Source of the DNA: Paenibacillus sp. Root52
Lineage (GTDB): Bacteria; Bacillota; Bacilli; Paenibacillales; Paenibacillaceae
Reading direction: 5' to 3'
NCBI RefSeq assembly: GCF_001426865.1
Contig: NZ_LMFO01000001.1
Location: forward strand, 496,001-560,000
DNA: 64,000 nt
The translations under genes and the position numbers were made by a program. The notes beneath the pieces were generated by a model, which did not search any database, was not told the DNA's origin, and was given only the letters and a program-made list of their open reading frames with translations. Shown here piece by piece: positions 1 to 19,898 of this stretch (its first letter is position 1; every line of letters starts with the position of its first letter).

Positions 1-1
1 T

Positions 2-751
2 TTAGCAAAGGGCTATTCCTTTATTCCTCGAGGCTTTTCATTGGATGCATACGCCTTTATTTTTCGTAATCCTGCTGAACTTCTTTCTGCTTATCGGGTG
101 TCGATAATTGTCGCAGTGGTTGGAACCGTTCTGTCACTGCTAATCTCCACGATGGCAGCCTATGTGATGTACCGCAAAGAGGTGAAGTATCGGAACAAAC
201 TGGCGTTCTTCCTGTTCTTCACCACATTATTCAGTGGTGGCTTAGCACCCTTTTTCATCTGGGTTACCAGTTACTTGCATCTGAAGAACACGCTTGCAGT
301 TTTGATACTGCTTCCTATGTTCAACGTGATGTACGTTTTGATCCTCCGAAGCTTCATTAAAGGTTCGGTGCCTGAGCCGCTTGTGGAATCGGCGAAAATT
401 GACGGAGCAGGAGACTTTCGAATTTTCTGGCAAATGGTTCTGCCCCTCTGCAAACCAGCGCTTGCTTCAATCGGCCTGTTCACTATTTTAGCCTACTGGA
501 ACGACTGGTGGACACCTATGATGTTCACTGATAAACAGGAGTATGTACCCCTTCAGTATATGCTCTATAAAATGTTGTCTTCAATGAATATGTCAGCTGC
601 CCTGGCTCAGCATGTATCCTCTCTTGAAATGCCGAAGGAAACATTCAAGCTTGCTATGACCGTTATTGCTACAGGTCCGGTTGTGATCCTGTTTCCATTT
701 CTTCAACAGTATTTTGTTAAAGGAATCACCATTGGTGCCGTCAAAGGCTAA
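2..751 (+). CDS. Carbohydrate ABC transporter permease (LplC/YtcP type), 5' end outside window
   Basis: This is a membrane subunit of a CUT1-type sugar or oligosaccharide importer. The frame is open from base 2, so the gene starts upstream of the window; a TTG at 41 is only an internal codon. Hydrophobic segments alternate with short loops. The EAA-type loop that contacts the ATPase reads ESAKIDGAGDFRIFWQMVLP around bases 385-445. The C-terminus ends in the usual ITIGAVKG, which closely resembles the LVLGSVKG end of the permease at 42931. A solute-binding lipoprotein follows after 84 bp, so this is the tail of a permease-permease-binding protein set. No ATPase gene is present; such importers often share one ATPase encoded elsewhere. 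Confidence 0.93.
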   Translation, partial: LAKGYSFIPRGFSLDAYAFIFRNPAELLSAYRVSIIVAVVGTVLSLLISTMAAYVMYRKEVKYRNKLAFFLFFTTLFSGGLAPFFIWVTSYLHLKNTLAVLILLPMFNVMYVLILRSFIKGSVPEPLVESAKIDGAGDFRIFWQMVLPLCKPALASIGLFTILAYWNDWWTPMMFTDKQEYVPLQYMLYKMLSSMNMSAALAQHVSSLEMPKETFKLAMTVIATGPVVILFPFLQQYFVKGITIGAVKG

Positions 752-835
752 ATGTTATTAGAGTCCTAGGTGTGATATGAATCCTATTTAATTCATTGGG
801 ATTTATATAAAAAAATTAAATAAGGGGGAAGAAAA

Positions 836-2404
836 ATGAAGAATTCTAAGAGAAATATGAAGATCATTCTTGCTATGATGCTATCGTTCGCCTTGCTATT
901 ATCTGCCTGTTCAAAAGGCAATGAAGATAATGCAAGCACCACTGGAAATGAAGATCCAACAGGGCAAAAAGAAGTTGTTCTAAAAGGTTACCTGCTTGGT
1001 GAGGCGCCAAAAGGAATGCCTGAGGTACTTGAAACATTGAATAAGAAACTAAAAAAGGACATCAATGCTACGATTGAGTTGAATTATATCAGTTGGGGAG
1101 ATGTGCAATCCAAGTACCCATTGTTGCTGGCTACAGGTGAAGATTTGGATTTTATCTTCTCAGCAGATTGGAATTATTATGTTGAACAAGCGAATAAAGG
1201 AGCCTTTTATGAACTGAAGCAAGAAGACATAGCAAAATATATGCCGAAAAAATCGGCAGCAATGGATCCTGCTGCTTGGGATGAAGCCAAGATTAAGGAT
1301 AAAATCTATATGATTCCGAAGACAACCCCTGATAGTAATGTCTTCGTATCTGTACTTCGTAAAGATATTATGGCGGAAGCAGGCCTTACCGATGTGAAGA
1401 GTCTCTCTGAGATTGGTCCTTATCTGGAAGCAGTGAAGAAAAATCATCCAGATATGGTTGGCCTAAATCTGGACTCACAGGTTGACCTGCCAACACCGTA
1501 TCAACATCTGATGCGTGAGAAAGTGGGCTTTACGGGCGGCTCACTTGGCGGTGGACCTTTGTCCCAGGGAGCGGCTTTTGATTTCACAGATCCGTCGGGA
1601 AAAATTTATAGCATGGTTGAAGAGCCTTACTTAAGTGCCCAGAAATATGCGGCTACTATTATGAAGGACTGGTATGACAAAGGATACGTTAACAAAAATC
1701 CGTATGCCAATAAAATTCGCTCCAAAGATAATTTTGTTGAAGGCAAATCTGCGGTAGCGTTTGGCAACAGCATTGATATTGCAGCGACCATTGAAGCTGC
1801 TGAAGCAAAGGGAATTGAAACTTACATCATTCCGTCGTTGATGCCAAACGGTAAAGTCCCGATGGGAAATCACATTGGGGCTGGGATATCAATTGCGGCA
1901 AATTCCAAAAATCCAGAACGTGTAATGCAAGCATTTGACCTTATTATGGAAGATCCATTATATGTTTATTTAACATATTTCGGAATTGAAGGTAAGAACT
2001 ATGTCGTCAAGGATGATAAAGTCGGTTTGCCGGAAGGGGTGACAGCTGAAACAAACACCTATCCTCCTGATTCCGCAGGCTTCTGGTTCGTAAATAAAGC
2101 TTTGTTTAAGCCAATGAGTACTTGGCCGAAGACTTATATTGACTTCTGGGAGAAACAGGACGAATACAATACCTCAGACTTTGCACTTAATGGATTTAAC
2201 TTTAACACTGAGAACGTGAAAACACAGATTGCAAACTTGGCCAATGCATCCACACAGTATGCCAACCCGATCTACATTGGTGCAGTTAAGGATGTAGACA
2301 AAGCATTTGATGAACTGACTCAAAATTTAAATAGTGCTGGTCTGGATAAAGTAAAAGAAGAGGGACAGGCACAAGTTGACGCTTTTCTTGCAAAGAAGAA
2401 ATAG
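836..2404 (+). CDS. Extracellular solute-binding lipoprotein of sugar ABC importer (LplA family, DUF3502-type C-terminus)
   Basis: This is the substrate receptor of the importer whose permease ends just upstream. The 522-residue protein starts with a basic, hydrophobic signal peptide and a lipobox LLSACSKG, so Cys25 should be lipidated and anchored on the outer face of the membrane. A Ser/Thr/Asn/Glu-rich linker follows, then the two-lobed binding domain. The start follows a strong AAGGGGGAAG ribosome site. Its C-terminal region (FNTENVKTQIANL onward) is clearly similar to that of the second binding protein at 12623. A hairpin terminator sits 57 bp downstream, which would let this gene be transcribed in excess over the enzymes behind it. 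The ligand cannot be read from sequence; an oligosaccharide is inferred from the neighbours. Confidence 0.93.
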   Translation: MKNSKRNMKIILAMMLSFALLLSACSKGNEDNASTTGNEDPTGQKEVVLKGYLLGEAPKGMPEVLETLNKKLKKDINATIELNYISWGDVQSKYPLLLATGEDLDFIFSADWNYYVEQANKGAFYELKQEDIAKYMPKKSAAMDPAAWDEAKIKDKIYMIPKTTPDSNVFVSVLRKDIMAEAGLTDVKSLSEIGPYLEAVKKNHPDMVGLNLDSQVDLPTPYQHLMREKVGFTGGSLGGGPLSQGAAFDFTDPSGKIYSMVEEPYLSAQKYAATIMKDWYDKGYVNKNPYANKIRSKDNFVEGKSAVAFGNSIDIAATIEAAEAKGIETYIIPSLMPNGKVPMGNHIGAGISIAANSKNPERVMQAFDLIMEDPLYVYLTYFGIEGKNYVVKDDKVGLPEGVTAETNTYPPDSAGFWFVNKALFKPMSTWPKTYIDFWEKQDEYNTSDFALNGFNFNTENVKTQIANLANASTQYANPIYIGAVKDVDKAFDELTQNLNSAGLDKVKEEGQAQVDAFLAKKK

Positions 2405-2460
2405 AAATATTTTCTTTCCATTAAAATGAAATCTTTTTACCGATGATGATTCAGTCTACG

Positions 2461-2490
2461 AGAGCGCAGTAAGTGTACTGCGCTCTTTCT
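2461..2490 (+). terminator. Intra-operon hairpin terminator after the first binding protein
   Basis: A perfect 11-bp stem (2461-2471 with 2476-2486), loop AGTG, is followed by TTCT. The T tract is short, so termination is probably partial. A GTG at 2473 that would extend the next gene lies inside this hairpin, which argues against that start. Confidence 0.7.
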
Positions 2491-2586
2491 AACAGATATT
2501 TTAAGGTTTATGTAAATAACTTTGCTATGTACATCAAAAAAATGAAGATCCTGCTGTCGTATCTTATTGAAAGTGAGTTGAATACT

Positions 2587-5103
2587 ATGATTGGCACTTG
2601 GCATTTCATATATGAGACTGTTCATACCACCATAAAAATGCAGTTTATTATTGGAAAAGAGGAGGATTTCACCTTATCTGTTATTCTTGAGCCCTTTCCA
2701 TTTCCTGTTGAGATTAACAGTGTGAAAATCGATGGTCATGTATTGCAGGCAAAGGGTACATCTCAATTTGTACCAGGAGAGGGTTTTGAATTTGATTTGA
2801 CTTTTGAAGGCAAGGAGTTCCAGGGAAGAATCAAGATTCCCTATCAGGAAGCGTTTTCTGTAAAAGGAACCGAAGGCTCGGGTCCATCCCTTGAAGATTT
2901 GCTCATTGCTAAACTCTCTAGTTACAGGAATCAAAATGTAAAGCAACGGAGTGATAATGAAATCCATCATGAGGTCGATACATTACTCAATAGGATGTCC
3001 GTTACTGATAAGCTTGGTCAAATGAGTCAGTGCATGTCTACCAATCTTTCTCTGGGATCTGATATTGATTCAGAATCGCCAGAAAAGCTTGTTTCAGAAG
3101 GCAGAGCTGGCTCAGTACTATCTGCTGTAAACAGCAATCGTGTGTTCGAATTGCAGAAAATTGCGGTGGAACAATCTCCTCATGGTATTCCATTGTTATT
3201 TAACTTTGATGTAATCCACGGATTTCAGACCATATTTCCGGTGCCGCTTGCCTGTTCATGTAGTTGGGACATGACTGCGATTCGGGAAGCCAGTGCAATT
3301 GCTGCCAAGGAAGCCACCGCTACAGGAATAACCTATAATCATGGGCCGATGGTAGATATTACAAGAGACCCACGTTGGGGACGTGTTGTGGAGGGGGCGG
3401 GAGAAGATCCTTATCTAGGAAGCTTAATCGCAAAAGCTCAAGTTGAAGGTTTACAAGGAGATAGTCTGTTCGATCCAGAGACAATTATCGCTTGTTTGAA
3501 GCATTTTGTTGCATACGGTGCTGCTGAAGCCGGTCGCGATTACAACACAGTAGATATATCCGAAGGGACACTGCGCAATGTATACCTCCCACCATTTCAA
3601 GCAGGAATTGATGCTGGTGCAGGGTCGGTTATGAATTCGTTTAACACCTATCAAGGAGTTCCGGTGGCAGGTAACCAGTATGTTCTTAATGAACTCCTCC
3701 GAAAAGAGTTGGGATTTAACGGAATACTGATCTCCGACTACGGCTCCATTGATGAAATTGTCGCTCACGGAAATGCGAAAGACAGTAAAGAAGCAGCAAA
3801 AAAAGCACTGGATGCCACGATGGATATCGAAATGGTGACTCGTTCATATGATCATCTGAGCGATTTAATTGAGCAAGGAATCGTAAACATTGAACAAATA
3901 AATGAAGCAGTACGTCGCATTCTGACATTTAAATATAAGATCGGTATTATGGACGATCCATACCGATACATTCGTCCCGAGAAGGAAAAGAAATATCATT
4001 TTCACCCGGCACATCTGGAAGCAAGCCGGAAGTTAGCTCAAAAATCTATCGTCATGTTGAAAAATAATGGCGTACTGCCGCTTAAAAGCACGGAATTGAA
4101 TTTGGCAGTGATCGGCCCATTTGGCGATAGCAAGGATATGCTCGGCCCCTGGCAGTGGTCCCGGTATGCAAATCAAACGGTTACTCTGCGAGAAGGAATT
4201 TTAGCGAAGGACTTCCCCGAGACTAATCTGCTCATTGAAGAGGGATGCAAGGTTGAACACGTGATAGAGGGTGGAGTAGAGCGAGCTGTAGCGGCAGCGC
4301 TCCAATCAGACATCGTCATTCTAGCTTTAGGAGAGAGCAGTGAAATGTCAGGTGAAGCCGCATCTCGTATGGATATTCATCTACCGAAAGTGCAACAAGA
4401 GTTAGCCGAAGCTATAGTTCGCGTGGGCAAGCCGGTTATTCTGGTATTGACCAATGGACGTCCTCTTGTACTTGATTGGTTTGAGTCACATGTGGATGCG
4501 ATCTTAGAAACGTGGTTCTTAGGCTCACAGGCTGGATTTTCCATAGCGGATGTGCTTTTCGGTGATTACAATCCATCTGGAAAATTAACAATGAGCTTTC
4601 CTGCTCACTCAGGGCAGGTACCAATATACTACAATCATTTCAAAACCGGAAGACCTGTAACGGAAAGTAATAAGGGTGAGAAATTTTTCTCCCGATATAT
4701 TGATGGCTCCAACGACCCTCTCTATCCTTTTGGTTTTGGACTAAGTTATACGACATTCGAAATCTCGGAGATAAGATTGTCGCAAACACGAATGATGGAA
4801 TCAGGAACAATATTCGCTAGTGTAACAGTTACGAATACTGGAATGGTAGCGGGTGAAGAAACCGTTCAGATGTACATTCAGGATATCTATGCAAGTGTGG
4901 TTCGTCCTGTTAAAGAGCTTAAAGGGTTTAAAAAAGTAAAATTAGCAGTAGGTGAGGCAAAAGAAATCAGTTTCAAAATTACTGCTAAAGATCTGGCATT
5001 TTGGAACCTTAACAAGAAGAATGAAGTTGAACCTGGAGATTTCAAAGTATATATCGGATCGAACTCATATCACGTAAAAGAGGCATTGTTTGAGCTTGTA
5101 TAA
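2587..5103 (+). CDS. Glycoside hydrolase family 3 enzyme (beta-glucosidase-like) with N-terminal extension
   Basis: It probably releases glucose or a related sugar from the non-reducing end of imported oligosaccharides in the cytoplasm, since no signal peptide is seen. The ATG at 2587 is preferred because the longer frame would begin inside the terminator hairpin; this gives 838 residues. Residues 1 to about 115 form a beta-rich stretch not typical of GH3. Then come the GH3 TIM barrel (about 130-440), the alpha/beta sandwich (about 480-690) and a fibronectin-III-like end (about 740-830). Family marks are GPMVDITRDPRWGRVVEGAGE, LKHFVAYG and ILISDYGS, whose Asp384 fits the catalytic nucleophile. 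A second GH3 gene follows after 44 bp. Exact linkage specificity is unknown and the ribosome site is weak. Confidence 0.88.
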   Translation: MIGTWHFIYETVHTTIKMQFIIGKEEDFTLSVILEPFPFPVEINSVKIDGHVLQAKGTSQFVPGEGFEFDLTFEGKEFQGRIKIPYQEAFSVKGTEGSGPSLEDLLIAKLSSYRNQNVKQRSDNEIHHEVDTLLNRMSVTDKLGQMSQCMSTNLSLGSDIDSESPEKLVSEGRAGSVLSAVNSNRVFELQKIAVEQSPHGIPLLFNFDVIHGFQTIFPVPLACSCSWDMTAIREASAIAAKEATATGITYNHGPMVDITRDPRWGRVVEGAGEDPYLGSLIAKAQVEGLQGDSLFDPETIIACLKHFVAYGAAEAGRDYNTVDISEGTLRNVYLPPFQAGIDAGAGSVMNSFNTYQGVPVAGNQYVLNELLRKELGFNGILISDYGSIDEIVAHGNAKDSKEAAKKALDATMDIEMVTRSYDHLSDLIEQGIVNIEQINEAVRRILTFKYKIGIMDDPYRYIRPEKEKKYHFHPAHLEASRKLAQKSIVMLKNNGVLPLKSTELNLAVIGPFGDSKDMLGPWQWSRYANQTVTLREGILAKDFPETNLLIEEGCKVEHVIEGGVERAVAAALQSDIVILALGESSEMSGEAASRMDIHLPKVQQELAEAIVRVGKPVILVLTNGRPLVLDWFESHVDAILETWFLGSQAGFSIADVLFGDYNPSGKLTMSFPAHSGQVPIYYNHFKTGRPVTESNKGEKFFSRYIDGSNDPLYPFGFGLSYTTFEISEIRLSQTRMMESGTIFASVTVTNTGMVAGEETVQMYIQDIYASVVRPVKELKGFKKVKLAVGEAKEISFKITAKDLAFWNLNKKNEVEPGDFKVYIGSNSYHVKEALFELV

Positions 5104-5147
5104 CACGCGCCATTAATCTAAAGGCAAATGACATTTGGAGGTAGAAC

Positions 5148-7622
5148 ATGATCTATAAAGATGCCAGTAAGTCTATTGCTGAGAGAACTGAAGATCTAAT
5201 TAAAAGAATGACTTTGAAGGAAAAAGTAGCTCAATTATATTGTGCCAATTCGTATGGTGGAGAATCTGTCTATGATAGCAGAATGCATAAATTAAAGGAT
5301 GGAATTGGAACCGTAAGTTATCTAAATGATTCTTTTACAGGTGATCTTAATAAAGATAGGGAGACTATAAAAGGAATACAAAAATATCTTGTCGAGGAGA
5401 CCAGATTGGGCATTCCCGGATTATTCCATAGTGAAGGCATAGCTGGTGCGCAGATTCCTAGTGCTACTACATTCCCTCAGTCACTCAACCTTGCTTCAAC
5501 TTGGGAACCGACTTTAGCAAAAAAAATGGGCGAAGTCGTCAAAAAACAACTCATTGCTTTTGGATTTAGAGCAGTTCATTCCCCGCTATTTGACTTGGCA
5601 AGAGATCCAAGATTTGGGCGAGTTGGTGAAACCTATGGCGAAGATCCCTATTTAGTTGCTCAAATTGGTGTATCTTTTGTCAATGGGATACAGGGTGAAC
5701 ATGAAATTATGGCTACAGCAAAGCATTTTGTTGGTTATGGGAATGCAGAAGGTGGAAGAGGAGGAGGCGAACAGCAAATATCTGAGCGAAGATTGCTGGA
5801 TAGTTATTGTTTCCCCTTTGAAGCTGCCATTCATGAAGCAAAAATAAAAGCAGTGATGAACAGTTATGGGATGCTTAATGACCAAGCTGTGTCTACATCC
5901 AAATGGCTACTCACTGACATTCTAAGAAACAAGCTGGGTTTTCAGGGATTGGTCGTAGCAGACTATGGTAGCATTACTCATGCATTTCTACGATATAGAG
6001 TGGCAGAAGATGCGAAAGGAGCAGGTATACTGGCATTCAAAGCTGGAATGGATGTGGAACAACCTGGAAGTCAATGTTATCAGCATTTGGTAGAAGCAGT
6101 TGAGTCAGGTGAGCTTGAAGAAGCGCATATTGATGTTTCATTAAGAAGAGTTCTTGAAACGAAATTCACACTGGGACTATTCGAGAATCCTTATGAAGAT
6201 GGCGACTTCTTTAGCGAAATTAAAAAAGCAGAGAATGCAGAATTATCATTAGAGATTGCGGAAAAATCAATGGTATTAGTAAAAAATGAGGATGGTATCC
6301 TGCCACTCAACAAGAAGCTGAAAATTGCTCTGATCGGACCAAACTCGGATACCAAAACAAACTTTTTTGGAGGATATTCATCCGTTGGTTCGGCAAGCAC
6401 AAAAAGCAGTGATTTTGACAAATCTGAAGAAGATAGCTTCTTGAGAATGCTATATACCGGAACCATTACAGATAATAAAGAATCATTAAAGTCAATGGGC
6501 ATCGAGTTTGATGAGAAACCTACCCCTGAACAAAAAGCAATCATTATGAATATGATCAGGCAGAATTTAAATTCTGATGATTCATCGAACAGAGTCTATA
6601 GAACGAATGAAGAATTTGTTCAAATGTTTTATCCGGATTGTAAATCTGTTAAGGATGTTCTGGAAGAAGAGTTCGGGAAAGATCATGTGTTACACGCCAA
6701 AGGCTGCAATATATTCAAGGCTATAGATGGTGGAATAGAAACAGTTAAAGCTGCTGTACAAGAGGCAGATATCGTCATTGCAGTATTGGGCGGCAAAGAA
6801 AGCATGATAGATCCTGAAGCTACCTGTGGTGAAAACAAAGATAACATCAATATAGGTCTAGAAAAGCCTCAACTGGACTTGATGGAAGAAGTATTTAAGC
6901 TGAATAAACCTGTTATTTCTATTATTGTTGATGGGCGACCACTATCTACACCATACGTAAGTGAACAGAGTAAAGCTGTCTTATATTCATGGCTTCCAGC
7001 ACAGTTTGGGGCAGAAGCTATTGTAAATATCCTTACAGGCAAGATCAATCCTAGCGGAAAATTGCCGGTGACCATAGTAAAAGAATCTGGCCAGATTCCC
7101 ATGTACAACAGCAGATTACCACTCTATGTTGATATTAATGAATTTGCTGAATATATCAAAACTAACCAAAACACACCGCTTTACCCATTTGGACATGGAT
7201 TAAGCTATACCCGATTTGAATACAGCGAATTGGTACAGAATGCCACGGTTCAGGCAGACGGTGACTTGAGCATCGCATTTAAGCTAAAAAACACCGGACA
7301 AGTTGCTGGTGAAGAAGTTGTCCAGGTCTATATTAGGGATCAAGTAAGCAGTGTTGCAAGACCTGTGAAGCAGTTGGTTGGATTTGCACGGGTTACCCTG
7401 GATGTGAACCAAACAAAAATAGTTGAATTTAAGGTAAGTATGAAACAGCTGGCATTTCATGATTTAAATATGGATCAGATTGTTGAGCCAGGTAAGATGG
7501 AAGTGTTTATAGGTGCATCGTCCCAAGATATTCGTTTAAAAGGTGTATTTGCGATTATAGGCGAGAAACTTATTGTTGAACGTAAGGTGTTTTCTTCACA
7601 GGTAACAATTACAGAGCTATAG
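5148..7622 (+). CDS. Glycoside hydrolase family 3 enzyme (beta-glucosidase-like)
   Basis: This is the second cytoplasmic GH3 glycosidase of the operon, 824 residues. It begins after a good TTGGAGGT ribosome site and lacks a signal peptide. The barrel domain covers about 1-340 with DLARDPRFGRVGETYGEDPY, TAKHFVGYG (Lys192-His193) and VVADYGS, where Asp272 fits the nucleophile. The C-terminal sandwich (about 370-650) has VDGRPLS and SGKLPVTI, and the fibronectin-III-like domain sits at about 700-790. A stretch of about 90 residues (about 405-495) carries an additional charged segment inside the second domain. It is diverged from the GH3 protein upstream, so the two likely cleave different bonds or sugars (glucose, xylose or arabinose are all possible in this family). 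It is 10 bp from the next gene. Confidence 0.92.
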   Translation: MIYKDASKSIAERTEDLIKRMTLKEKVAQLYCANSYGGESVYDSRMHKLKDGIGTVSYLNDSFTGDLNKDRETIKGIQKYLVEETRLGIPGLFHSEGIAGAQIPSATTFPQSLNLASTWEPTLAKKMGEVVKKQLIAFGFRAVHSPLFDLARDPRFGRVGETYGEDPYLVAQIGVSFVNGIQGEHEIMATAKHFVGYGNAEGGRGGGEQQISERRLLDSYCFPFEAAIHEAKIKAVMNSYGMLNDQAVSTSKWLLTDILRNKLGFQGLVVADYGSITHAFLRYRVAEDAKGAGILAFKAGMDVEQPGSQCYQHLVEAVESGELEEAHIDVSLRRVLETKFTLGLFENPYEDGDFFSEIKKAENAELSLEIAEKSMVLVKNEDGILPLNKKLKIALIGPNSDTKTNFFGGYSSVGSASTKSSDFDKSEEDSFLRMLYTGTITDNKESLKSMGIEFDEKPTPEQKAIIMNMIRQNLNSDDSSNRVYRTNEEFVQMFYPDCKSVKDVLEEEFGKDHVLHAKGCNIFKAIDGGIETVKAAVQEADIVIAVLGGKESMIDPEATCGENKDNINIGLEKPQLDLMEEVFKLNKPVISIIVDGRPLSTPYVSEQSKAVLYSWLPAQFGAEAIVNILTGKINPSGKLPVTIVKESGQIPMYNSRLPLYVDINEFAEYIKTNQNTPLYPFGHGLSYTRFEYSELVQNATVQADGDLSIAFKLKNTGQVAGEEVVQVYIRDQVSSVARPVKQLVGFARVTLDVNQTKIVEFKVSMKQLAFHDLNMDQIVEPGKMEVFIGASSQDIRLKGVFAIIGEKLIVERKVFSSQVTITEL

Positions 7623-7632
7623 GGGTGAGAAA

Positions 7633-10074: not shown

Positions 10075-10094
10075 TTTTAATTAGGAGTGATAAC

Positions 10095-12413: not shown

Positions 12414-12429
12414 GACCAAGCTTAGATTG

Positions 12430-12481
12430 CTCTAAATACCATCAGGAGCGAAACGAAAGATGGAGCTTGAATTATTTAGAG
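12430..12481. other. Nested inverted repeat in the intergenic leader
   Basis: CTCTAAATA (12430-12438) matches TATTTAGAG (12473-12481), and CCATC (12439-12443) matches GATGG (12459-12463) inside it. There is no T tract, so it does not look like an ordinary terminator. It could be an RNA fold that protects or ends the upstream message, or a protein site. Confidence 0.35.
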
Positions 12482-12555
12482 ATCGATTGATGTAGGATCT
12501 GTTAGTACGTCGTCAAATGAATATCAACATGTCGTTAAGTGAGCAGTCTTCCGGG

Positions 12556-12587
12556 TTGAAAGAAATTAAAATGTGAATGTATACATT
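12556..12587 (+). promoter_or_regulatory. Candidate promoter with palindromic operator for the second binding protein
   Basis: TTGAAA (12556-12561) is followed 18 bp later by TATACA (12580-12585). The perfect 12-bp palindrome AATGTATACATT (12576-12587) covers the -10 box. It lies 35 bp before the next start codon, a position fit for a repressor site. The regulator is unknown. Confidence 0.5.
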
Positions 12588-12622
12588 TTCTTGGAAATAT
12601 TTCTTATACCGAGGAGGATATT

Positions 12623-14143
12623 ATGCCAAAAAATCGAAGGTTGCTTAACGCATTACTTATCATTGCCATATTATTGTTGTCAGCCTGTAGTAACAGCAGC
12701 AATAACAATAATGGAGGGACAACTGCAGAATCCGGTCCATCTGAAGAATCCGGCGAACTGACAGAATTAACGGTTGCTTTTCCTATTTTTGCTGCACTTC
12801 CGAAGGATATGTCTTTGATTGAAGAAGAGGTTAATAAAATAGCCGAGGAGAAAATTAATGTTAGAGTCAAATTATTACCCATTAGTTTCTCCAATTGGAC
12901 ACAACAAGTAAACTTGATGTTTTCCAGCGGAGAAAAGCTGGATCTAATGCCAACAATCTATGCCTACAACACAGCAATAACACAAGGTCAATTGATTCCG
13001 CTGGATGAACTTCTTAACAAGCATGGGGAAGGTATAATTGCGGCATTAGATTCGGCTTATTTGGATGCTTCAAGGGTGGATGGAGCCATATTTGGTGTGC
13101 CTACTATGCATGAAATGGCATATGTTAATGGCATCACAATGCGAGAAGATATCCTCGAAAAATACCAAATTGATACGAGTAAGCTTCGAAAACTGGAAGA
13201 TTTAGAAGAAGTTTTGAAAGCGGTTAAAAATGGTGAGCCCAACATGGCACCTTTAATCCCAGCAACAGGAGCATCTATTCTAGATAACTATCAGACTTTC
13301 GACAGACTGGATAATCATCTGGGTGTTCTTCCTGGTTTTGACAACGGATTGAAAGTTGTTGATTTGTACGGTACAGAAGAATACGCTGAGCAGCTTCACA
13401 TGCTTAGAAGATGGTACCAGGATGGTCTAATTCTTAAAGATGCTTCGACGAATCAGATGAATGCACAAGATCTAATCGATTCTAATCGTGGTTTTGCGTT
13501 TCTACTAAATGCTCATCCCGGAGCACTTCAATTTGAAGAAGGGGAAAAAAAATCTAATAAAGTGTCGATGAAAACCATAGCATTCTCAGACCCTCCTGTT
13601 TCTTCAACTGCTCATATTACAAACACAATGTGGGGGATCACTTCGAATTCTAAATCTCCAGATAAAGCAATGGAATTTCTTAATCTGATGTACTCTGATA
13701 AAAACATCTCGAATCTATTGATCTGGGGAATTGAAGGAAAACACTATAAAGTTTTATCTGAAAATGTCATCGATTTTCCTGAAGGTGTCAATGAGCAAAA
13801 TTCAGGATATCGATTAAATGCCGGTTGGATGTTTGGTAATCAATTTATCGCCTATGTCTGGCAAGGAACAGATCCTGATATCTGGGGAAAAGTAAAACAG
13901 TTTAATGAGTCAGCTGTAAAATCAAAGGCTCTTGGTTTCACGTTCGATCCAACATCAGTCAAAACAGAAATTGCCGCCATCGGGAATGTTATTTCACAGT
14001 ATCGCCTTCCTCTTGAAACAGGAAGCATTGATCCAGATAACGTGTTGCCGAAATTTTTGGACAACTTGAAAATTGCTGGAATTGACAAAGTGATTGAGGA
14101 GAAGCAGAGACAACTCGACCAATGGGTGAAATCCAACCAATAA
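12623..14143 (+). CDS. Extracellular solute-binding lipoprotein (LplA family, DUF3502-type), second of the locus
   Basis: This is a second sugar receptor in the same locus, 506 residues. It has a signal peptide ending in LLLSACSN, so Cys22 should be lipidated, followed by an Asn/Ser/Gly-rich linker. Start ATG lies after GAGGAGGATATT. The mature domain and the C-terminal VKTEIAAIGNVISQY...LDNLKIAGIDKVIEE region align by eye with the first binding protein at 836, so the two are diverged paralogs. No permease gene accompanies it here, which suggests that both receptors dock on the permeases encoded upstream. It has a candidate promoter of its own with a palindrome over the -10. Confidence 0.92.
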   Translation: MPKNRRLLNALLIIAILLLSACSNSSNNNNGGTTAESGPSEESGELTELTVAFPIFAALPKDMSLIEEEVNKIAEEKINVRVKLLPISFSNWTQQVNLMFSSGEKLDLMPTIYAYNTAITQGQLIPLDELLNKHGEGIIAALDSAYLDASRVDGAIFGVPTMHEMAYVNGITMREDILEKYQIDTSKLRKLEDLEEVLKAVKNGEPNMAPLIPATGASILDNYQTFDRLDNHLGVLPGFDNGLKVVDLYGTEEYAEQLHMLRRWYQDGLILKDASTNQMNAQDLIDSNRGFAFLLNAHPGALQFEEGEKKSNKVSMKTIAFSDPPVSSTAHITNTMWGITSNSKSPDKAMEFLNLMYSDKNISNLLIWGIEGKHYKVLSENVIDFPEGVNEQNSGYRLNAGWMFGNQFIAYVWQGTDPDIWGKVKQFNESAVKSKALGFTFDPTSVKTEIAAIGNVISQYRLPLETGSIDPDNVLPKFLDNLKIAGIDKVIEEKQRQLDQWVKSNQ

Positions 14144-14191
14144 AGGGCTGCCTATTGTATCATCCAATTCTTTGGAAGGGAACGATGCCTG

Positions 14192-17017
14192 ATGATTATT
14201 ACGAAACTCAAAACAAATCGAATTACGAATCCGTTGGGATTCTTCTTGGGTGATTGGCCTAGACTTTCTTATGTAGTCACGTGTACTGATGCTAAGAAGC
14301 AGATTGCAGCTAGGTACGAAGTAGCACTGGACGAAGATTTTTCTTCCATTATATTTGATAGTGGTAAGCAAACAGATATCGATAGTCTCTCCTTCGAGCT
14401 GCGGATCGAAATCCAACCCAGAACTCGCTATTTCTGGAGGGTAGAGGTGTGGGCAGATAATGGAGACCATGCTGTTAGCGATGTTGCCTGGTTCGAAACG
14501 GCAAAACTAGACGAATCGTGGGAGGCGGAGTGGATCATACCTGTAATGGACACGGAGCATCACCCAGTCCTTAGCAGAACTTTCAAACTCACAAAATCAG
14601 TTGATTCCGCCCGTGCATACGTATGTGGTCTCGGAATGTATGAGATGCAGATTAATGGGATCAAGGCAGGTGACGAGTATTTCGCCCCTCACTTCAACGC
14701 ATATAACAAGTGGCTACAATATCAGACGTATGACATAACAGAGTTATTGATCGAAGAAGAAAACCAGGTAGAGGTGAGCCTCGGGAACGGGTTATACAAG
14801 GGACGTTTCGGATTTGATGGTTATTCCAGAGAATTATACGGTAACGAGTTCGCTCTATTATGTGAAATTCGGGTCAAGTATACGGATGGAACAACGGAGA
14901 TTCTAAAATCAGATACGGAATGGATTGCGGAGAGAAGCCCGGTTTTGAATGGTAATTTGTATGATGGTGAAGTCTACGATGCAACCTTCACGGCCACAGA
15001 ATTGCATTCGGTTCGCAAAGGTAATCTTGGCTTTGAACGTCTTACTGCAAGATTAAGTCTTCCTGTTGTGGTGAAGGAAGAGTTGAAGCCGATTGAAGTA
15101 ATTTACACACCAGCAGGTGAGACAGTACTCGATATGGGTCAAAACATGGTTGGTTGGATACAATTTCATACACATGCTTCAAAAGGAACGGTGATCCGTC
15201 TTCAACATGGTGAGGTTCTACAGGAAGGGAACTTCTATCGCGATAACCTTCGAACAGCCAAGGCGGAATATGTTTATACAGCTAATGGGGAAGAAAGAAT
15301 CGTTCGTCCGTACTTCACTTTCTATGGCTTCCGGTACGTCAAGGTGCAAGGCTGGCCGGGAGAGCTCGATCCTAACGACTTTACAGGCTGTGTCCTCTAC
15401 TCTGATTTGGAACAAATTGGAGTAATTGAGACGAGCAACCCACTTGTAAATCGGTTGTTTCAGAATGCGCTTTGGGGACAGAAGGGCAATTTCCTGGATG
15501 TTCCTACAGATTGCCCACAAAGGGACGAACGGATGGGCTGGACAGGAGATGCCCAAGTGTTCTCTGGGACCGCTTGTTTTAACATGGATTCGTATGCGTT
15601 CTATTCAAAGTATGGTCATGATATGGCACTTGAACAAGAGGATCGCGGAGGCATGGTTCCAATGGTCGTTCCCGCAGTGAACGTTCCGAGCGGTGGCTCT
15701 AGCGCATGGGCTGACGCAGCCACGATCATTCCCTGGAACGTGTATCTTCATTATGGTGACAAGGGAATATTACGGCAGCAGTACGAGAGCATGAAGAGCT
15801 GGGCTGACTTTATTATCCATGCTGACGAGAATTCGGGCTGCAGTAGACTGTGGACGGTCGGTTTTCATTTAGGAGACTGGCTTGCCCTGGACGGGAACGA
15901 TCCTGAATCGGTAATAGGGGCAACAGACACGGCCTTTATCGCATCTGCCTATTATTACTATTCCTCAAAATTAGTCGCAAAAGCGGCAATGGTGCTTGGC
16001 TTTGAGGATGACCAAGTCTATTACGAACGAATCTCCGGAGAAGTCAAACATGCTATAGAGAACGAGTTCTTTTCAAAAAACGGTCGCCTTGCGATCGATA
16101 CCCAGACGGCATATGCCATAGCACTGTATATGGATCTAGTCCCGGCAGCGTACCAGAAACGTGTTATAGAGGCATTAGTTATTCGTCTTCGAAAGGATGA
16201 CTATCATCTCCAGACTGGCTTTGTAGGAACTCCTTACCTAAACTTCGCATTATCGAATAATGGTTGTGAAGAACTTGCCTACACACTGTTGCTCAACGAA
16301 GATCATCCGAGCTGGCTCTATGCAGTCAAGCTTGGAGCGACGACGATCTGGGAACGTTGGAATTCCATTGACTCGGATGGAAGAATCGGTCCACCTGGGT
16401 TGAACTCCCTGAATCACTATGTCTATGGTGCAATTGCAGAATGGATGTACCGAGTAATCGCAGGAATGAACCCAGACGAAGAAGTGCCGGGTTTTCGCCG
16501 GATCATATTCGCACCGAAGCCGGATTTCCGCTTACAATGGGCGAAAGCTGTGGTAGATTCGGCGGCAGGTACTTATAGGAGTGAATGGGCATTTGATGAA
16601 GACGGGAGACTTGAATTCCGCTTCGAGATTCCGTTTAATTCGACGGCGCATGTTCTCCTACCACGAGCATCTGTGGGTACAATCTCAATTAATAATAGTT
16701 TGGAGTTAAATGTGCCCATGGTTCAAGATGGAGAGGATGTAAAGCTTGAGTTAGAGAGTGGAAACTACCTGATTCAATATATGCCGAATAGGAGCTATAT
16801 TAAAACTTTTAGCACATATACACCGCTTGTCGATCTGGTTGTGAACGAACATGCACGTAAGCTTATTGAACCAGTAGTTCCTCCTGGTTTTGAGATGGAA
16901 CCAAGTTCGATTTGGTACAAGGTTCGAGACTCTTCAATCAGAGATTTTGTCGCTCATTTTCCTATGGATACAAGCATACTTGAGGAGTTAGATGAGAAAT
17001 TAAAAGCAATTAGGTAA
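14192..17017 (+). CDS. Alpha-L-rhamnosidase, glycoside hydrolase family 78
   Basis: It should remove terminal alpha-L-rhamnose from imported plant glycosides or rhamnogalacturonan fragments by an inverting mechanism. The 941-residue protein has an N-terminal fibronectin-III-like region (about 1-105), beta-sandwich domains with the rhamnosidase N-domain (about 115-290), a further sandwich (about 300-400), the (alpha/alpha)6 barrel (about 405-760) and a C-terminal sandwich (about 765-850). The barrel shows PTDCPQRDERMGWTGDAQ with Glu446 as candidate general acid, and TTIWERWNS with Glu721 as candidate base. About 90 further residues close the protein and are not typical of the family. No signal peptide is seen. 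The gene starts after GGAAGGGAACG, 48 bp behind the binding protein. Confidence 0.93.
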   Translation: MIITKLKTNRITNPLGFFLGDWPRLSYVVTCTDAKKQIAARYEVALDEDFSSIIFDSGKQTDIDSLSFELRIEIQPRTRYFWRVEVWADNGDHAVSDVAWFETAKLDESWEAEWIIPVMDTEHHPVLSRTFKLTKSVDSARAYVCGLGMYEMQINGIKAGDEYFAPHFNAYNKWLQYQTYDITELLIEEENQVEVSLGNGLYKGRFGFDGYSRELYGNEFALLCEIRVKYTDGTTEILKSDTEWIAERSPVLNGNLYDGEVYDATFTATELHSVRKGNLGFERLTARLSLPVVVKEELKPIEVIYTPAGETVLDMGQNMVGWIQFHTHASKGTVIRLQHGEVLQEGNFYRDNLRTAKAEYVYTANGEERIVRPYFTFYGFRYVKVQGWPGELDPNDFTGCVLYSDLEQIGVIETSNPLVNRLFQNALWGQKGNFLDVPTDCPQRDERMGWTGDAQVFSGTACFNMDSYAFYSKYGHDMALEQEDRGGMVPMVVPAVNVPSGGSSAWADAATIIPWNVYLHYGDKGILRQQYESMKSWADFIIHADENSGCSRLWTVGFHLGDWLALDGNDPESVIGATDTAFIASAYYYYSSKLVAKAAMVLGFEDDQVYYERISGEVKHAIENEFFSKNGRLAIDTQTAYAIALYMDLVPAAYQKRVIEALVIRLRKDDYHLQTGFVGTPYLNFALSNNGCEELAYTLLLNEDHPSWLYAVKLGATTIWERWNSIDSDGRIGPPGLNSLNHYVYGAIAEWMYRVIAGMNPDEEVPGFRRIIFAPKPDFRLQWAKAVVDSAAGTYRSEWAFDEDGRLEFRFEIPFNSTAHVLLPRASVGTISINNSLELNVPMVQDGEDVKLELESGNYLIQYMPNRSYIKTFSTYTPLVDLVVNEHARKLIEPVVPPGFEMEPSSIWYKVRDSSIRDFVAHFPMDTSILEELDEKLKAIR

Positions 17018-17098
17018 TTTTGACAGTAATTAATCTTCAAAGTCGATATAAATGAATTAATATCCATTTATTACAAATATGACAGGAGAGTTTGCATC

Positions 17099-18628
17099 AT
17101 GACATTGCCTTACTTAAAAAAAGAAGACGGAGTATTTAACCTTTATGTTGACAATAAGCCTTACATCGCATTAGCAGGTGAAATTCACAACTCCAGTGCG
17201 TCCGACCTGAACTATATGAGAGATAACGTGTGGCCAAACCTAAGAGGATTACACTTGAATACGGTAATTGCTCCGGTCTACTGGGAACTTGTCGAACCGA
17301 ATCCTGGCGAATTTGATTTTGAGCTTGTGGAGGGAATTATCGAACAGGCACGCGAAGAAAACGTTCGCTTGGTACTCTTATGGTTTGGGTTGTGGAAAAA
17401 TGGAGTTTCATCCTATGTCCCTACTTGGGTGAAGAGAAATAAGGAAACATATTTCCGAACTGCCTATCGTAATCAAACGACTTCAGATACGATTTCGCCG
17501 TTATGCGAAGAAGCTATTAAAGCGGATGCCAATGCTTTTAGGCAATTCATGAGCCATCTGAAAAAAGTGGACAGTGATCATCATACTGTGATTATGGTTC
17601 AAGTGGAGAATGAAATAGGGTTTCTTGGTAGTGATCGTGACTATTCAGATGCTGCAAATGAACAGTTCAACCTTCTCATTCCTGATGAAGTAGGAGCCAT
17701 TTTTGGAAAAGCAGGAACGTGGAAAGAAGCTTTTGGTTACGACGCAGAAGAATATTTTATGGCTTACCATTACGCTCAGGCAGTTGAATTGATCGCAAGT
17801 AAAGGAATTGAAGAGTACCCGTTACCTGTGTTTGTGAATGCCTGGCTTGAACAATTTCCGTGGAATCCGGGATCCTATCCAAGTGGTGGGCCGATTGCAA
17901 AGGTGATACCGATCTGGAAAGCAACGGCTCCGTCAATCTGTCTTTATGCGCCGGATATATATGTTGATAATTTTACAGAGGTTTGTGAGGAATATACGTC
18001 TGGGAACGAAAATCCGTTATTTATTCCCGAAGCGAGAAGAGACGTGGCATCTGTGGCGAAAGTCTTTTATGCTTTTGGAAAGTATAATGCTTTGTGTTAT
18101 TCCCCATTTGGCATCGAGGACTTCTTAGCTCCGCCTAAAGAAGATTCGGATTATGATCCTAGCGTGTTAATAAGTCTCAATATAGATTTTTCCGCATTTG
18201 ATGCAACCGGAACAGGTTCCTACCTTGCACAGAGTTATAAGTTGCTTAGTAATATGCTAGGAGTCATACAGAAGAACCGTGGAACGGGGAAAATGACAGG
18301 TTTCTTCCAGAATAATGAGCCAGGCTGTATACTGTCGTTCTCCAAATACAATTTGAAAGTCACTTATAAGCTCAAAAAAGATGGTAAACCCTTATCAGGG
18401 GGACTCGTCATAGAGGCCAATGATAACGAATTTTTTGTAGTAGGTATCGGTTTTTCGGTAGAATTTCTCCCTAAAGAAGGGGACTACAATTCAGAGTATG
18501 TTCGTATAGAGGAAGGGACTTTCGTGCAAGACGAGTGGGTTCGTGGACGCGTGTTGAATGGAGACGAAGCAGCTTACGGCTTCTCCATTGGGAGTCGCCC
18601 ATCTGCGCTCCGAGTGGAGCTACACTAA
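17099..18628 (+). CDS. GH35-like beta-galactosidase family protein with DUF5597-type C-terminus
   Basis: This is a predicted cytoplasmic beta-galactosidase-like enzyme of 509 residues, preceded by GACAGGAGAG. The N-terminal TIM barrel (about 1-350) starts with LAGEIHNSSAS and contains NTVIAPVYWELVEPNPG, both typical of the GH35/GH42-like clan. QVENEIG puts Glu172 as acid/base, and LFIPEARRD puts Glu311 as likely nucleophile. The last 120 residues form a beta-rich module as in proteins called DUF5597. With the GH2 enzyme it would give the locus two galactosidase-type activities. The exact sugar released is not shown by the sequence. Confidence 0.85.
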   Translation: MTLPYLKKEDGVFNLYVDNKPYIALAGEIHNSSASDLNYMRDNVWPNLRGLHLNTVIAPVYWELVEPNPGEFDFELVEGIIEQAREENVRLVLLWFGLWKNGVSSYVPTWVKRNKETYFRTAYRNQTTSDTISPLCEEAIKADANAFRQFMSHLKKVDSDHHTVIMVQVENEIGFLGSDRDYSDAANEQFNLLIPDEVGAIFGKAGTWKEAFGYDAEEYFMAYHYAQAVELIASKGIEEYPLPVFVNAWLEQFPWNPGSYPSGGPIAKVIPIWKATAPSICLYAPDIYVDNFTEVCEEYTSGNENPLFIPEARRDVASVAKVFYAFGKYNALCYSPFGIEDFLAPPKEDSDYDPSVLISLNIDFSAFDATGTGSYLAQSYKLLSNMLGVIQKNRGTGKMTGFFQNNEPGCILSFSKYNLKVTYKLKKDGKPLSGGLVIEANDNEFFVVGIGFSVEFLPKEGDYNSEYVRIEEGTFVQDEWVRGRVLNGDEAAYGFSIGSRPSALRVELH

Positions 18629-18666
18629 GTACATTGTAAGTTATGTTGTGAATGGAGGCTTGATCT

Positions 18667-19569
18667 GTGATGAAACATCTGTTTGATATTCCTGAGGGTA
18701 AAAAAATCCGCCTAATTATTAATACTGACGCTAAGAATGAAGCGGATGACCAATTTGCCATTGTTCATGCGTTACTGACCCCGAGATTCAATATTAAAGG
18801 CATTATAGCAGCTCATTTTGGAGAACGAAGAACGACCACTTCGATGCAGGAAAGCTATGATGAAGTGAACAACGTATTGGAACTTATGGATCTGACACAG
18901 GAAGTTCCTGTCTTTAAAGGTTCCGAAAGAGCCCTGCCAGATGAAGAAACTCCGTCGATGTCAGAAGGTGCTGAGTTAATTATCCGCGAATCCCTTTCGG
19001 ACGATCCGAAACCGCTCTACGTTATATTCCTTGGTCCAATCACTGACTTGGCAGCTGCATATCTGAAAGAACCAGCAATTGCTGACAGATTGACCGCGGT
19101 ATGGATTGGGGGAGGCCAATGGCCGGAGGGAGAATTCGAGTTTAACTTAAGTAATGATATTAATGCGGCTAATGTCATTTTCAATTCAAATATTCCACTA
19201 TGGCTTATACCTAAAGATGTTTACGCAACCATTCGAGTTAGTATCGCGGAACTAGCCGTCAGAGTGAAGCCTTATGGCAAAGTAGGAGCCTATTTATATC
19301 AACAATTGGTGGACTTCAATCTCCAGATGGGTGAGGTTCCGGGGTGGCCCAAGGGTGAAATGTGGAGTTTGGGAGATTCTCCAGCGGTTAGCGTTTTACT
19401 GGATGATCACGAATACGGCTATGAAATGAAGCCTGCTCCGAGAATTACGAATGACATGCAATATGTGCATGGCCAGAGTGAGCGGTTAATCCGATGGTAT
19501 CATTTTATAGATTCTCGCTTTACATTGGAAGACATGTACGCGAAGCTCCAGCTTCATTTTTCTTCGTAG
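18667..19569 (+). CDS. Nucleoside-hydrolase-fold protein (IUNH/Sde182-like), last gene of the glycan locus
   Basis: This 300-residue protein has the inosine-uridine nucleoside hydrolase fold. Its metal loop is not the classical DTDxGxDD: it reads NTDAKNEADDQ (residues 19-29), two residues longer and similar to the TTD.GNE.DDQ loop of Sde182/DUF1593-like proteins. Other family marks are kept: IGGGQWPEGEFEFNLSNDINAANVIF and the IPLWLIPKDV strand. The start may be GTG 18667 or ATG 18670, both after GGAGG (18654-18658). Its place in a glycosidase operon suggests an N- or O-glycoside rather than a nucleoside as substrate; that is inference. A strong terminator follows. Confidence 0.8.
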   Translation: MMKHLFDIPEGKKIRLIINTDAKNEADDQFAIVHALLTPRFNIKGIIAAHFGERRTTTSMQESYDEVNNVLELMDLTQEVPVFKGSERALPDEETPSMSEGAELIIRESLSDDPKPLYVIFLGPITDLAAAYLKEPAIADRLTAVWIGGGQWPEGEFEFNLSNDINAANVIFNSNIPLWLIPKDVYATIRVSIAELAVRVKPYGKVGAYLYQQLVDFNLQMGEVPGWPKGEMWSLGDSPAVSVLLDDHEYGYEMKPAPRITNDMQYVHGQSERLIRWYHFIDSRFTLEDMYAKLQLHFSS

Positions 19570-19898
19570 AATATCAACAAAAAAAAGCAGTTGAATATGG
19601 GGAAAACATCCCTTGTTCAACTGCTTTTTTGATCTGAATAAAAACAAATGTATGTCACCCAACCTGCCGTTACCAGAAATAAAGTAAAACCTGTTCGAAT
19701 CTACTATTAGCAGTTTAAATTTACATAATTTTATACGATTTTTATAACAATCATACCAGTATATAGGAAACAAGAGGATTATACTCTAAAAAGAGGTTGC
19801 TGGAAAAACCACTGAAAGATAATTGATAGATTGTATGCATTTGTAACTAGATCTTTTAATGATTTCAATGCGATCAAAATTGCTGAGGAGGAGTATTA
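19570..19898. other. Intergenic region after the glycan locus
   Basis: This 329-bp stretch holds the operon terminator at 19581-19630 and then AT-rich sequence leading to the P450 gene. I see no coding frame and no confident promoter. Confidence 0.6.
19581..19630 (+). terminator. Terminator of the glycan utilisation locus
   Basis: AAAAAAGCAGTTGAA (19581-19595) pairs perfectly with TTCAACTGCTTTTTT (19616-19630) around a 20-nt loop. Runs of A and T on both flanks could serve both strands, but only the plus strand has a gene ending here. Confidence 0.9.

Follow-up and report, generated by a model that had tools for sequence, protein, structure and literature searches.

What does Paenibacillus sp. 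Root52 take up and dismantle with the transporter, receptor and glycoside hydrolase (GH) genes that open the stretch of DNA analysed here? The window, meaning this whole stretch of 64,000 nucleotides (G000:C1:496001-560000, with G000 denoting the genome of this strain), begins with a run of genes for an ABC permease, two lipoprotein receptors, and enzymes of families GH3, GH2, GH94, GH78 and GH35. From predicted functions and genome comparison, the locus is read as a multi-operon catabolic regulon for a plant glycoside containing α-L-rhamnose and β-linked glucose and galactose, with an aglycone that is probably hydrophobic; in this strain the substrate would be amphipathic and rhamnosylated. 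This reading is held tentatively and falls just short of being probable. The evidence for the predicted import of the sugars and their stripping inside the cell is good, and oxidation and export of the aglycone appear plausible. The computed evidence consists of gene content, its conservation, signs of horizontal spread, a locus-specific repeat and recurrent gene neighbourhoods.

Comparisons were made in a family sample of 295 genomes (f1, taken as Paenibacillaceae), in a phylum sample of 398 genomes, and by a contig scan for GH94 loci. G025 belongs to the same species as Root52, G179 is a Paenibacillus metagenome-assembled genome, G165 is P. helianthi, and locus L036 is from P. brasilensis.

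Predicted sugar import and intracellular stripping

The named genes of the run are all open frames on the + strand (2-19569), and Pfam supports every enzyme family assignment, bearing out the series of permease, two receptors, two GH3s, GH2, GH94, GH78, GH35 and nucleoside-hydrolase fold described in an earlier note made from the sequence alone. Transporter B is represented by permease B2 (2..751; BPD_transp_1), whose 5' end lies beyond the window edge, with permease B1, histidine kinase HK2 and response regulator RR2 just upstream, and by its lipoprotein receptor, the solute-binding protein (SBP) SBP-B (836..2404; DUF3502). There follow GH3a (2473..5103), a predicted BglX-type β-glucosidase that exceeds the NCBIfam cut-off for BglX (767.7 vs 666 bits); GH3b (5148..7622), whose best solved sequence relative is named a β-xylosidase (7zb3); GH2 (7633..10074), for which the best NCBIfam models, GalB and GalA, are both below cut-off; GH94 (10095..12413), a predicted phosphorylase with catalytic Asp461; SBP-C (12623..14143), the second receptor and a paralogue of an SBP-A encoded upstream; GH78 (14192..17017), a predicted α-L-rhamnosidase; GH35 with DUF5597 (17099..18628), which passes GH35_fam (545.5 vs 500 bits); and a nucleoside-hydrolase-fold protein, NH (18667..19569). 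The remaining enzymes passed no NCBIfam cut-off. In GH78, five Pfam domains above cut-off make up the full domain set of the family, and the RDER..GWTGD and WERW segments are kept in an alignment to 3w5m. NH scores 87.2 vs 34.2 bits for IU_nuc_hydro, and PF07632 is likewise over its cut-off.

None of the enzyme N-termini is strongly hydrophobic and all three SBPs have a lipobox, as judged by hydropathy and a motif check rather than by a signal-peptide predictor, which agrees with the earlier description of the enzymes as lacking signal peptides. From SBP-B to NH the intergenic gaps are 10-81 bp, except for 209 bp upstream of SBP-C, and the gap between NH and the following P450 gene is 329 bp. 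The locus combines a regulator, an ABC importer and intracellular carbohydrate-active enzymes, as in a Gram-positive glycan utilisation locus of the ABC type, with GH2, GH3 and GH78 co-located according to Pfam.

The limits of the locus originally proposed (1-19569) proved too narrow, as it extends for another ~17 kb upstream on this contig, to near C1:479,176. The upstream order is DegV, HK1, RR1, SBP-A, permeases A1 and A2, a divergent AraC, a short-chain dehydrogenase/reductase (SDR), a protein of 802 aa here termed GH5L, RR2, HK2, and permeases B1 and B2. Farther left are an HK0-RR0 pair (HisKA_3 / GerE type) and an MMPL exporter adjoining DegV, followed by GH32, an SBP, LacI and another GH78. 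The region to the left of HK0-RR0-MMPL (L099:3-11364) is a separate sugar locus, with this second GH78, MFS, AraC, LacI, an ABC transporter, GH32 and a ROK-family protein.

In a search of the Root52 genome, the best match of SBP-C after itself is SBP-A (69%; 72% by blastp), with SBP-B far lower (29%; 27% by blastp). For this reason SBP-C probably works with transporter A, and the two receptors of the run would probably correspond to two transporters. The idea that one substrate is imported whole and trimmed inside is accordingly retained in part: the genes fit intracellular trimming of an imported glycoside with a rhamnosidase, and the two receptors seem tied to two transporters. Because no ATPase gene is annotated among the locus genes, a shared ATPase of the MsmX/MalK type is presumed; one MalK-type OB domain is found elsewhere in the genome.

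A GH94 phosphorylase candidate and its partner GH5L

GH94 contains both the catalytic and the supersandwich domain (PF17167, 269 bits; PF06165, 124 bits). By sequence it forms a clade of its own (55-97% identity), present in Paenibacillus and Clostridia, in which no characterised member was found. The roles of the catalytic (general acid Asp), phosphate and subsite -1 residues are taken from work on solabiose phosphorylase (PMC8741936), and the corresponding residues R347, D348, W459, D461, Y610, H612 and T676 are invariant in 31 of 31 rows compared. The acceptor residues W603 and F672 of solabiose phosphorylase, mapped by motif distance rather than by structure, correspond to F604 and Q672 here, which do not vary among the 23 rows with an identity of at least 54.9% (G200 and G179 being represented twice, under G and L handles); W and F occur at these positions in relatives at 35-36% from G214 and G144. 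A third acceptor residue given in the same source, T337, corresponds to G342, in a place where loop length varies, and relative to cellobiose phosphorylase the alignment shows shortening of two loops close to the active site. GH94 is a candidate phosphorylase, probably with an acceptor of its own. Its assignment as a solabiose phosphorylase orthologue was rejected, as the acceptor-site residues differ (F604, Q672). The possibility that the 35-38% relatives (G214/G144) lie in the published solabiose cluster was also dropped, since Pfam identifies a LacI regulator and a melibiase/CBM/SLH protein in G214, the one of these two genomes that was scanned.

The contig scan, which used an alignment of six close GH94s and can detect a genome only if it contains one of two peptides without mismatch, yielded 26 GH94 loci: five from Paenibacillus, 15 from Clostridia (55-64%) and six with distant GH94s (28-32%). 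GH5L is present in 13 of the 15 Clostridia loci, full length in 12 (52-56%) and partial in one (45%), and the two loci without it sit on contigs of 3.8 and 6.8 kb. The same 15 loci contain GH3 (12), AraC (10), GH78 (8), GH35 (3) and NH (1), and a ninth (L033) contains a distant rhamnosidase domain. The distant-GH94 loci contain neither GH5L (0/6) nor GH78 (0/6). In the family sample, GH5L matches at 1e-30 occur in 14 of 295 genomes and are full length in five (Root52, G025, G165, G179 and G280); full-length GH5L is thus found in 4/6 genomes with close GH94 vs 1/289 others (Fisher 2e-7, kinship ignored). The phylum sample gave eight matches, full length only in Root52 and G025, two others extending over 670-705 of 809 positions at 29-32%. 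The steadiest partner of GH94 is therefore GH5L, not GH78.

The Pfam assignment of GH5L is weak (PF00150, 25.6 vs 23.5 bits for the Root52 copy), and a 54% relative in L032 has only GH42 below cut-off. Asn209-Glu210 and Glu416 are invariant in the alignment. In a predicted structure (mean pLDDT 71.8, pTM 0.80), Glu210 lies just past the strand 202-208 and Glu416 on the strand 412-417, the placement of the catalytic pair in clan GH-A. In VIA-align, a GH5 mannosidase aligned over 327 residues with Z 28, and GH42 and GH164 enzymes over 470-496 residues with Z 22-24. Foldseek and VIA together place the modelled barrel near GH5 mannosidases and mannanases, GH42 and GH164, which would fit several families, none being assigned. 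GH5L may represent an uncharacterised three-domain family of clan GH-A, a proposal that shares the doubtful standing of the island class considered below.

Several of the Clostridia loci (L031-L047) have GPH-type (MFS_2) sugar transporters rather than ABC transporters beside GH94, suggesting a small substrate there. In P. massiliensis, GH94 is followed by a Pfam-confirmed chemoreceptor (L030:12585-14648), raising the possibility of chemotaxis to the substrate.

An operator-like repeat and the proposed regulon

The upstream regions of SBP-A and SBP-C have in common a 38-bp direct repeat (GTCGT...GTCGT), located in the window at 12509..12546 on the + strand, 76 bp before SBP-C. A 38-column matrix built from 12 sites scores those sites at 40-56, by construction, vs a maximum of 10.2 over 490,000 positions of shuffled sequence. 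The repeat occurs upstream of SBP-A and SBP-C in Root52 and G025, of GH3b in G025 and G179, of HK1 and SBP-A in G179 and G280, and of GH3a in G280 and P. brasilensis; in G179 it also precedes GH43, RR2 (330 bp away) and a chemoreceptor-like gene (by eye). It further precedes an HK0-RR0-type pair in G179, with MMPL directly following, and in P. helianthi, with MMPL 12 kb away. HK1 in Root52 and G025 has a weak site only (18.6 and 20.1).

A search of nine whole genomes for the 27-base core, allowing up to three mismatches, gave 18 matches in six genomes, and the reversed pattern gave none. All 18 are in or beside the locus or its pieces: 17 are in or beside regions examined before the search, and the 18th (G165:C80), on a contig examined only after it, precedes SBP-A after HK1-RR1. 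G200, G170 and G080 gave no match at this threshold across their whole genomes. HK1/RR1 are present at the locus in Root52, G025, G165, G179 and G280, and absent from the regions retrieved for G170 and G200; in P. brasilensis a single repeat site is present, and the retrieved regions contain no HK1/RR1. We infer that RR1 may be the regulator that binds the repeat. Other short matches shared between upstream regions were within chance or too short to use.

In Root52 the gap between GH3a and GH3b (window 5104-5147) is 44 bp, vs ~150 bp with a repeat site in G025, and Root52 seems to have lost this site. The chemoreceptor-like gene downstream of a repeat site in G179 (near 63971 of the reverse-complemented 68 kb) could, like that of P. 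massiliensis, serve chemotaxis to the substrate.

P450, SDR and MMPL neighbourhoods

The SBP-C operon ends in a terminator-like hairpin with a T-run (19579..19630, + strand), and beyond it lies a cytochrome P450 gene (19899..21122, + strand), which probably forms its own transcription unit and may belong to the locus. Its clade (60-100%) occurs at 19 places in 17 of the 295 genomes. Segments of 20 kb, 14 in number, cover 15 of the 19 places, and the other four were seen in separate regions; several loci are near-identical, and the counts are not independent. The 14 segments contain GH78 (10), MMPL (10), an SDR at 53-56% (9), a GPH transporter (8), HK0-RR0 (7) and DegV (4). Six segments around a 51-52% P450 paralogue contain no GH78, MMPL or GPH transporter (0/6 each), and an SDR at 45-46% in 6/6. 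A GH78 60-61% identical to that of Root52 directly precedes the P450 in four segments (L101, L107, L108 and L111), and the sister species G080, with neither close GH94 nor GH5L, has, in this order, GH3, AraC, GH78, GPH, P450, SDR, HK0, RR0 and MMPL. At least five distinct arrangements contain GH78 and P450, and four of these also contain SDR and MMPL (one being the Root52 locus, over 54 kb).

The recurrence of GH78, MMPL and SDR weakens the view of the P450 as a chance neighbour, with two segments (L102 and L103) lacking these partners and G179 and G280 lacking the clade. Among solved structures, the P450s nearest in sequence are PksS, CYP267B1 and a vitamin D hydroxylase, which would fit a bulky hydrophobic substrate and do not amount to proof. 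The best solved relatives of the SDR (7djs, levodione reductase) point to no substrate. MMPL (E 1e-80) is absent from the G170 and G200 genomes. Its identity is 57% between Root52, G179 and G280, vs 78-85% for GH5L, making it less likely that MMPL is merely hitch-hiking with the sugar genes, although G165 and G179 share one MMPL at 91%.

Conservation and horizontal spread

Close GH94s (89-97%) are present in six of the 295 family genomes including Root52, with at most three candidates scored per genome; the next matches are at 37-38%, and the others listed at 35% or below. P. brasilensis, from the contig scan, is the seventh Paenibacillus genome with a close GH94. The order permB1-permB2-SBPB-GH3a-GH3b-GH2-GH94 is intact in G025 and G170, split by GH35-RR2-HK2-SBPB in G179, rearranged in G200, and ended by the contig edge in G165. 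G179 has a single block with all locus genes except SBP-C, NH and P450. In P. helianthi, parts of the locus are on three contigs: AraC-SDR-GH5L-RR2-HK2-permB1-permB2-SBPB-GH35-GH43, HK1-RR1-SBPA-permA1-permA2-GH3a, and GH3b-GH2-GH94. Comparison of gene order had been suggested in the earlier note, which would have given up its proposal had the order been kept in no relative; it is kept, as one block in G179 and in parts on the three P. helianthi contigs, with the repeat before SBP-A and before the SBP-C/GH78 operon.

GH94 nucleotide identity is 83-91% vs 74-81% for gyrB in the same ten pairs (Root52, G200, G165, G179 and G170), e.g. 91.4% vs 75.4% for G200/G165, and 90.4% vs 80.8% for G165/G179, the only pair inside genus g13. 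The excess of GH94 over gyrB identity is a sign of horizontal spread.

In P. helianthi, a DUF5060/apiosidase-like/DUF5605 protein is encoded between GH5L and RR2 (L083:10251-11810), hinting at an extra branch sugar. The P. brasilensis genes for GH94 and GH3a have broken frames, with one repeat site remaining (L036 10001-15508), suggesting a decaying copy of the locus, unless these are sequencing errors.

Candidate substrates and rival explanations

In the proposed mechanism, SBP-A, SBP-B and SBP-C would feed the two permease pairs, with the presumed shared ATPase. In the cytoplasm, GH78 would take off rhamnose, GH2, GH35 and the GH3s would take off galactose and glucose, and GH94 would phosphorolyse a β-glucoside to give glucose 1-phosphate. 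HK1/RR1 would probably act on the 38-bp repeat to switch on transporter A and the SBP-C/GH78/GH35/NH operon, and in relatives also GH3, GH43 and the sensor pair (in one relative directly before the MMPL exporter). P450 and SDR may modify the freed aglycone, and MMPL may export it. The substrate, the metabolic direction, the binding regulator, and the roles of P450, SDR, MMPL, NH and GH5L are assigned by prediction. The recurrence of P450, SDR, MMPL and the sensor pair at other GH78 loci argues, short of proof, for a glycoside whose aglycone is hydrophobic rather than for a rhamnogalacturonan piece. Among the substrates named in the earlier note, the saponin- or flavonoid-like ones are accordingly preferred; rhamnogalacturonan was set aside, as no GH28/GH105-type gene is present among the annotated genes of the Root52 locus, the genome at large not having been searched.

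A broader interpretation, which we regard as unlikely, is that the locus typifies a new class of islands, in which the sugars of saponin-like, membrane-active plant glycosides with rhamnose would be removed by phosphorolysis and hydrolysis, and this stripping would be coupled to aglycone oxidation by P450 and SDR, stress sensing and MMPL export under one operator. Its hallmark would be a GH94 of new acceptor specificity together with GH5L, in Paenibacillus and in Clostridia, some of the latter from guts (habitats here and below being based on record titles, species names and general background).

Confidence in the plant glycoside regulon and in the island class is modest because several cores have no GH78 beside them, G179 and G280 gave no match to the P450 clade, and in P. 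helianthi the repeat site is set apart from MMPL. These and related observations weigh against the regulon. Only three of the seven Paenibacillus genomes with a close GH94 (Root52, G025 and G179) were seen to have a GH78 near it; none lies in that vicinity in G170, G200 or P. brasilensis, none was seen in the P. helianthi regions retrieved, and the 60-kb locus region of G280 (GH5L present, no close GH94) contains no GH78. Since several core copies lack an adjacent GH78, the shared core (GH3, GH2, GH94 and transporter B) need not act on a rhamnoside. The matches listed for the P450 clade include none from G170, G179, G200 or G280, and the L102 and L103 segments contain no GH78, MMPL, GPH, HK0-RR0 or DegV, with SDRs at 31-35% only. 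In Root52, the P450 lies behind the terminator-like hairpin, MMPL is 38 kb from it, and HK0 has no strong repeat upstream. The site and MMPL are not adjacent in P. helianthi, and in G280 the best MMPL copy is elsewhere, the one beside the locus being only the second-best match. The Clostridia loci carry the sugar part, and no P450 was seen there. The mean pLDDT of the GH5L model (71.8) counts in the same direction, as does the close relatedness of many compared loci, by which Fisher values overstate independence.

The main rival, doubtful yet quite possible, is a pure oligosaccharide system for a wall or exopolysaccharide (EPS) fragment that resembles xyloglucan, arabinogalactan or an EPS and contains galactose, glucose and in some cases rhamnose. 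In such a system P450, SDR and MMPL would be unrelated neighbours. ABC importers of this SBP type usually carry oligosaccharides, the accessory GH43 in G179, P. helianthi and one Clostridia locus fits wall glycans, some members of the GH35 group have been studied on xyloglucan, and four of the 15 Clostridia records name goat omasum or 'Lapin'; core copies without adjacent GH78 also suit such a system. It is harder to reconcile with the lack of GH28, GH105, GH31 or uronidase among the annotated Root52 locus genes, with the recurrent GH78-P450 arrangements and their SDR and MMPL, and with the G179 repeat preceding a sensor kinase directly before MMPL.

Two separate islands could also lie side by side by chance, a spreading β-glucoside/galactoside core (transporter B, GH3a, GH3b, GH2 and GH94) and a rhamnoside module (HK1/RR1, transporter A, SBP-C, GH78 and GH35). 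The core does occur with neither system A nor GH78 nearby in G170 and G200 (the latter also with GH35 and an SDR-like fragment), and the 60-kb G280 region has GH3a-GH3b and system A without close GH94, GH2 or GH78. This arrangement is nevertheless improbable: the repeat before GH3b (G025 and G179) and GH3a (G280) joins both parts, SBP-C, of SBP-A type, sits within the Root52 run, and Clostridia GH94 pairs with GH5L, and with GH78 in 8/15 loci. Very improbable is detoxification and use of a rhamnolipid or other microbial glycolipid, in which GH78 would split off the sugar and P450, SDR, DegV and MMPL would deal with the fatty acyl moiety. Fatty acids are ligands of DegV proteins and are exported by some MMPL pumps, and DegV adjoins MMPL in Root52 and is found in 4/14 P450 segments; two GH3s, GH2, GH35 and GH94 would, however, be superfluous for a rhamnolipid, an esterase-type gene was noticed only in G179 (not every protein being scanned), and a polyketide P450 and a vitamin D hydroxylase are among the solved P450s closest to this one.

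Relation to known systems

No description of the locus appears among the titles and abstract openings listed by searches of the open-access PMC subset, in line with the earlier statement that no system with this exact set was known; part of the set has been published, as GH78, GH3 and GH2 loci for solanine and chaconine. PMC9597252 describes a trisaccharide utilisation locus for α-solanine and α-chaconine in Glutamicibacter halophytocola S2, and cites one in Arthrobacter S41. That locus, like the present one, combines GH78, GH3 and GH2, and fully deglycosylates a rhamnose/glucose/galactose glycoside, an activity that is predicted here. Three hydrolases are described there, whereas the Root52 locus also has GH94, GH35, GH5L, a second GH3, two ABC systems and a shared repeat, and possibly P450, SDR and MMPL. 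Solabiose phosphorylase PBOR_28850 of Paenibacillus borealis (PMC8741936) resembles the present GH94 in genus, length (~770 aa), and catalytic and subsite -1 residues. It differs in W603/F672 (F604/Q672 here), and the GH130 and GH26-like gene of its cluster were not found at this locus. In saponin catabolism by Sphingobium RC1 (PMC10653915), deglycosylation likewise involves GH3 and GH78, there with GH39 and GH106, and is followed by dehydrogenases acting on the aglycone; it differs in phylum, in that its aglycone enters a steroid pathway, and in that the main text makes no mention of a P450. The best solved sequence relative of GH35 is the β-1,2-galactosidase Bxy_22780 (8z47), which belongs to a Bacteroides polysaccharide locus (PMC11739564). 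Overall, the sugar part resembles known systems, and two enzyme groups (the GH94 clade and GH5L) and the shared control site look undescribed.

Plants use toxic glycosides to shape their microbiome, and our impression is that the Firmicute genes for use of such glycosides are poorly known, the literature found concerning mostly other phyla. The locus-specific repeat offers a ready readout, in that a molecule that switches the locus on would reveal the substrate. The GH94/GH5L pair provides two enzymes whose activity is not readable from known relatives and which could be of use in glycoside synthesis, and the recurrent GH78-P450-SDR-MMPL neighbourhood suggests a testable route for a lipophilic aglycone after deglycosylation.

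Minor features of the run

A perfect 10-bp inverted repeat between SBP-B and GH3a (2462..2485, + strand) is a possible processing or attenuation hairpin; it is absent from the listing of a consensus terminator scan, and the promoter/terminator consensus scan gave no excess over shuffled sequence. The true start of GH3a is probably ATG 2589, not GTG 2473. No NH gene was seen in the other Paenibacillus regions fetched and that of G025 is split into three pieces, weakening the case for NH as an essential component. In G025 (C1), SBP-A (near 5422-5424 kb) and NH (near 5390-5392 kb) are both fragmented, suggesting either decay or sequencing error.

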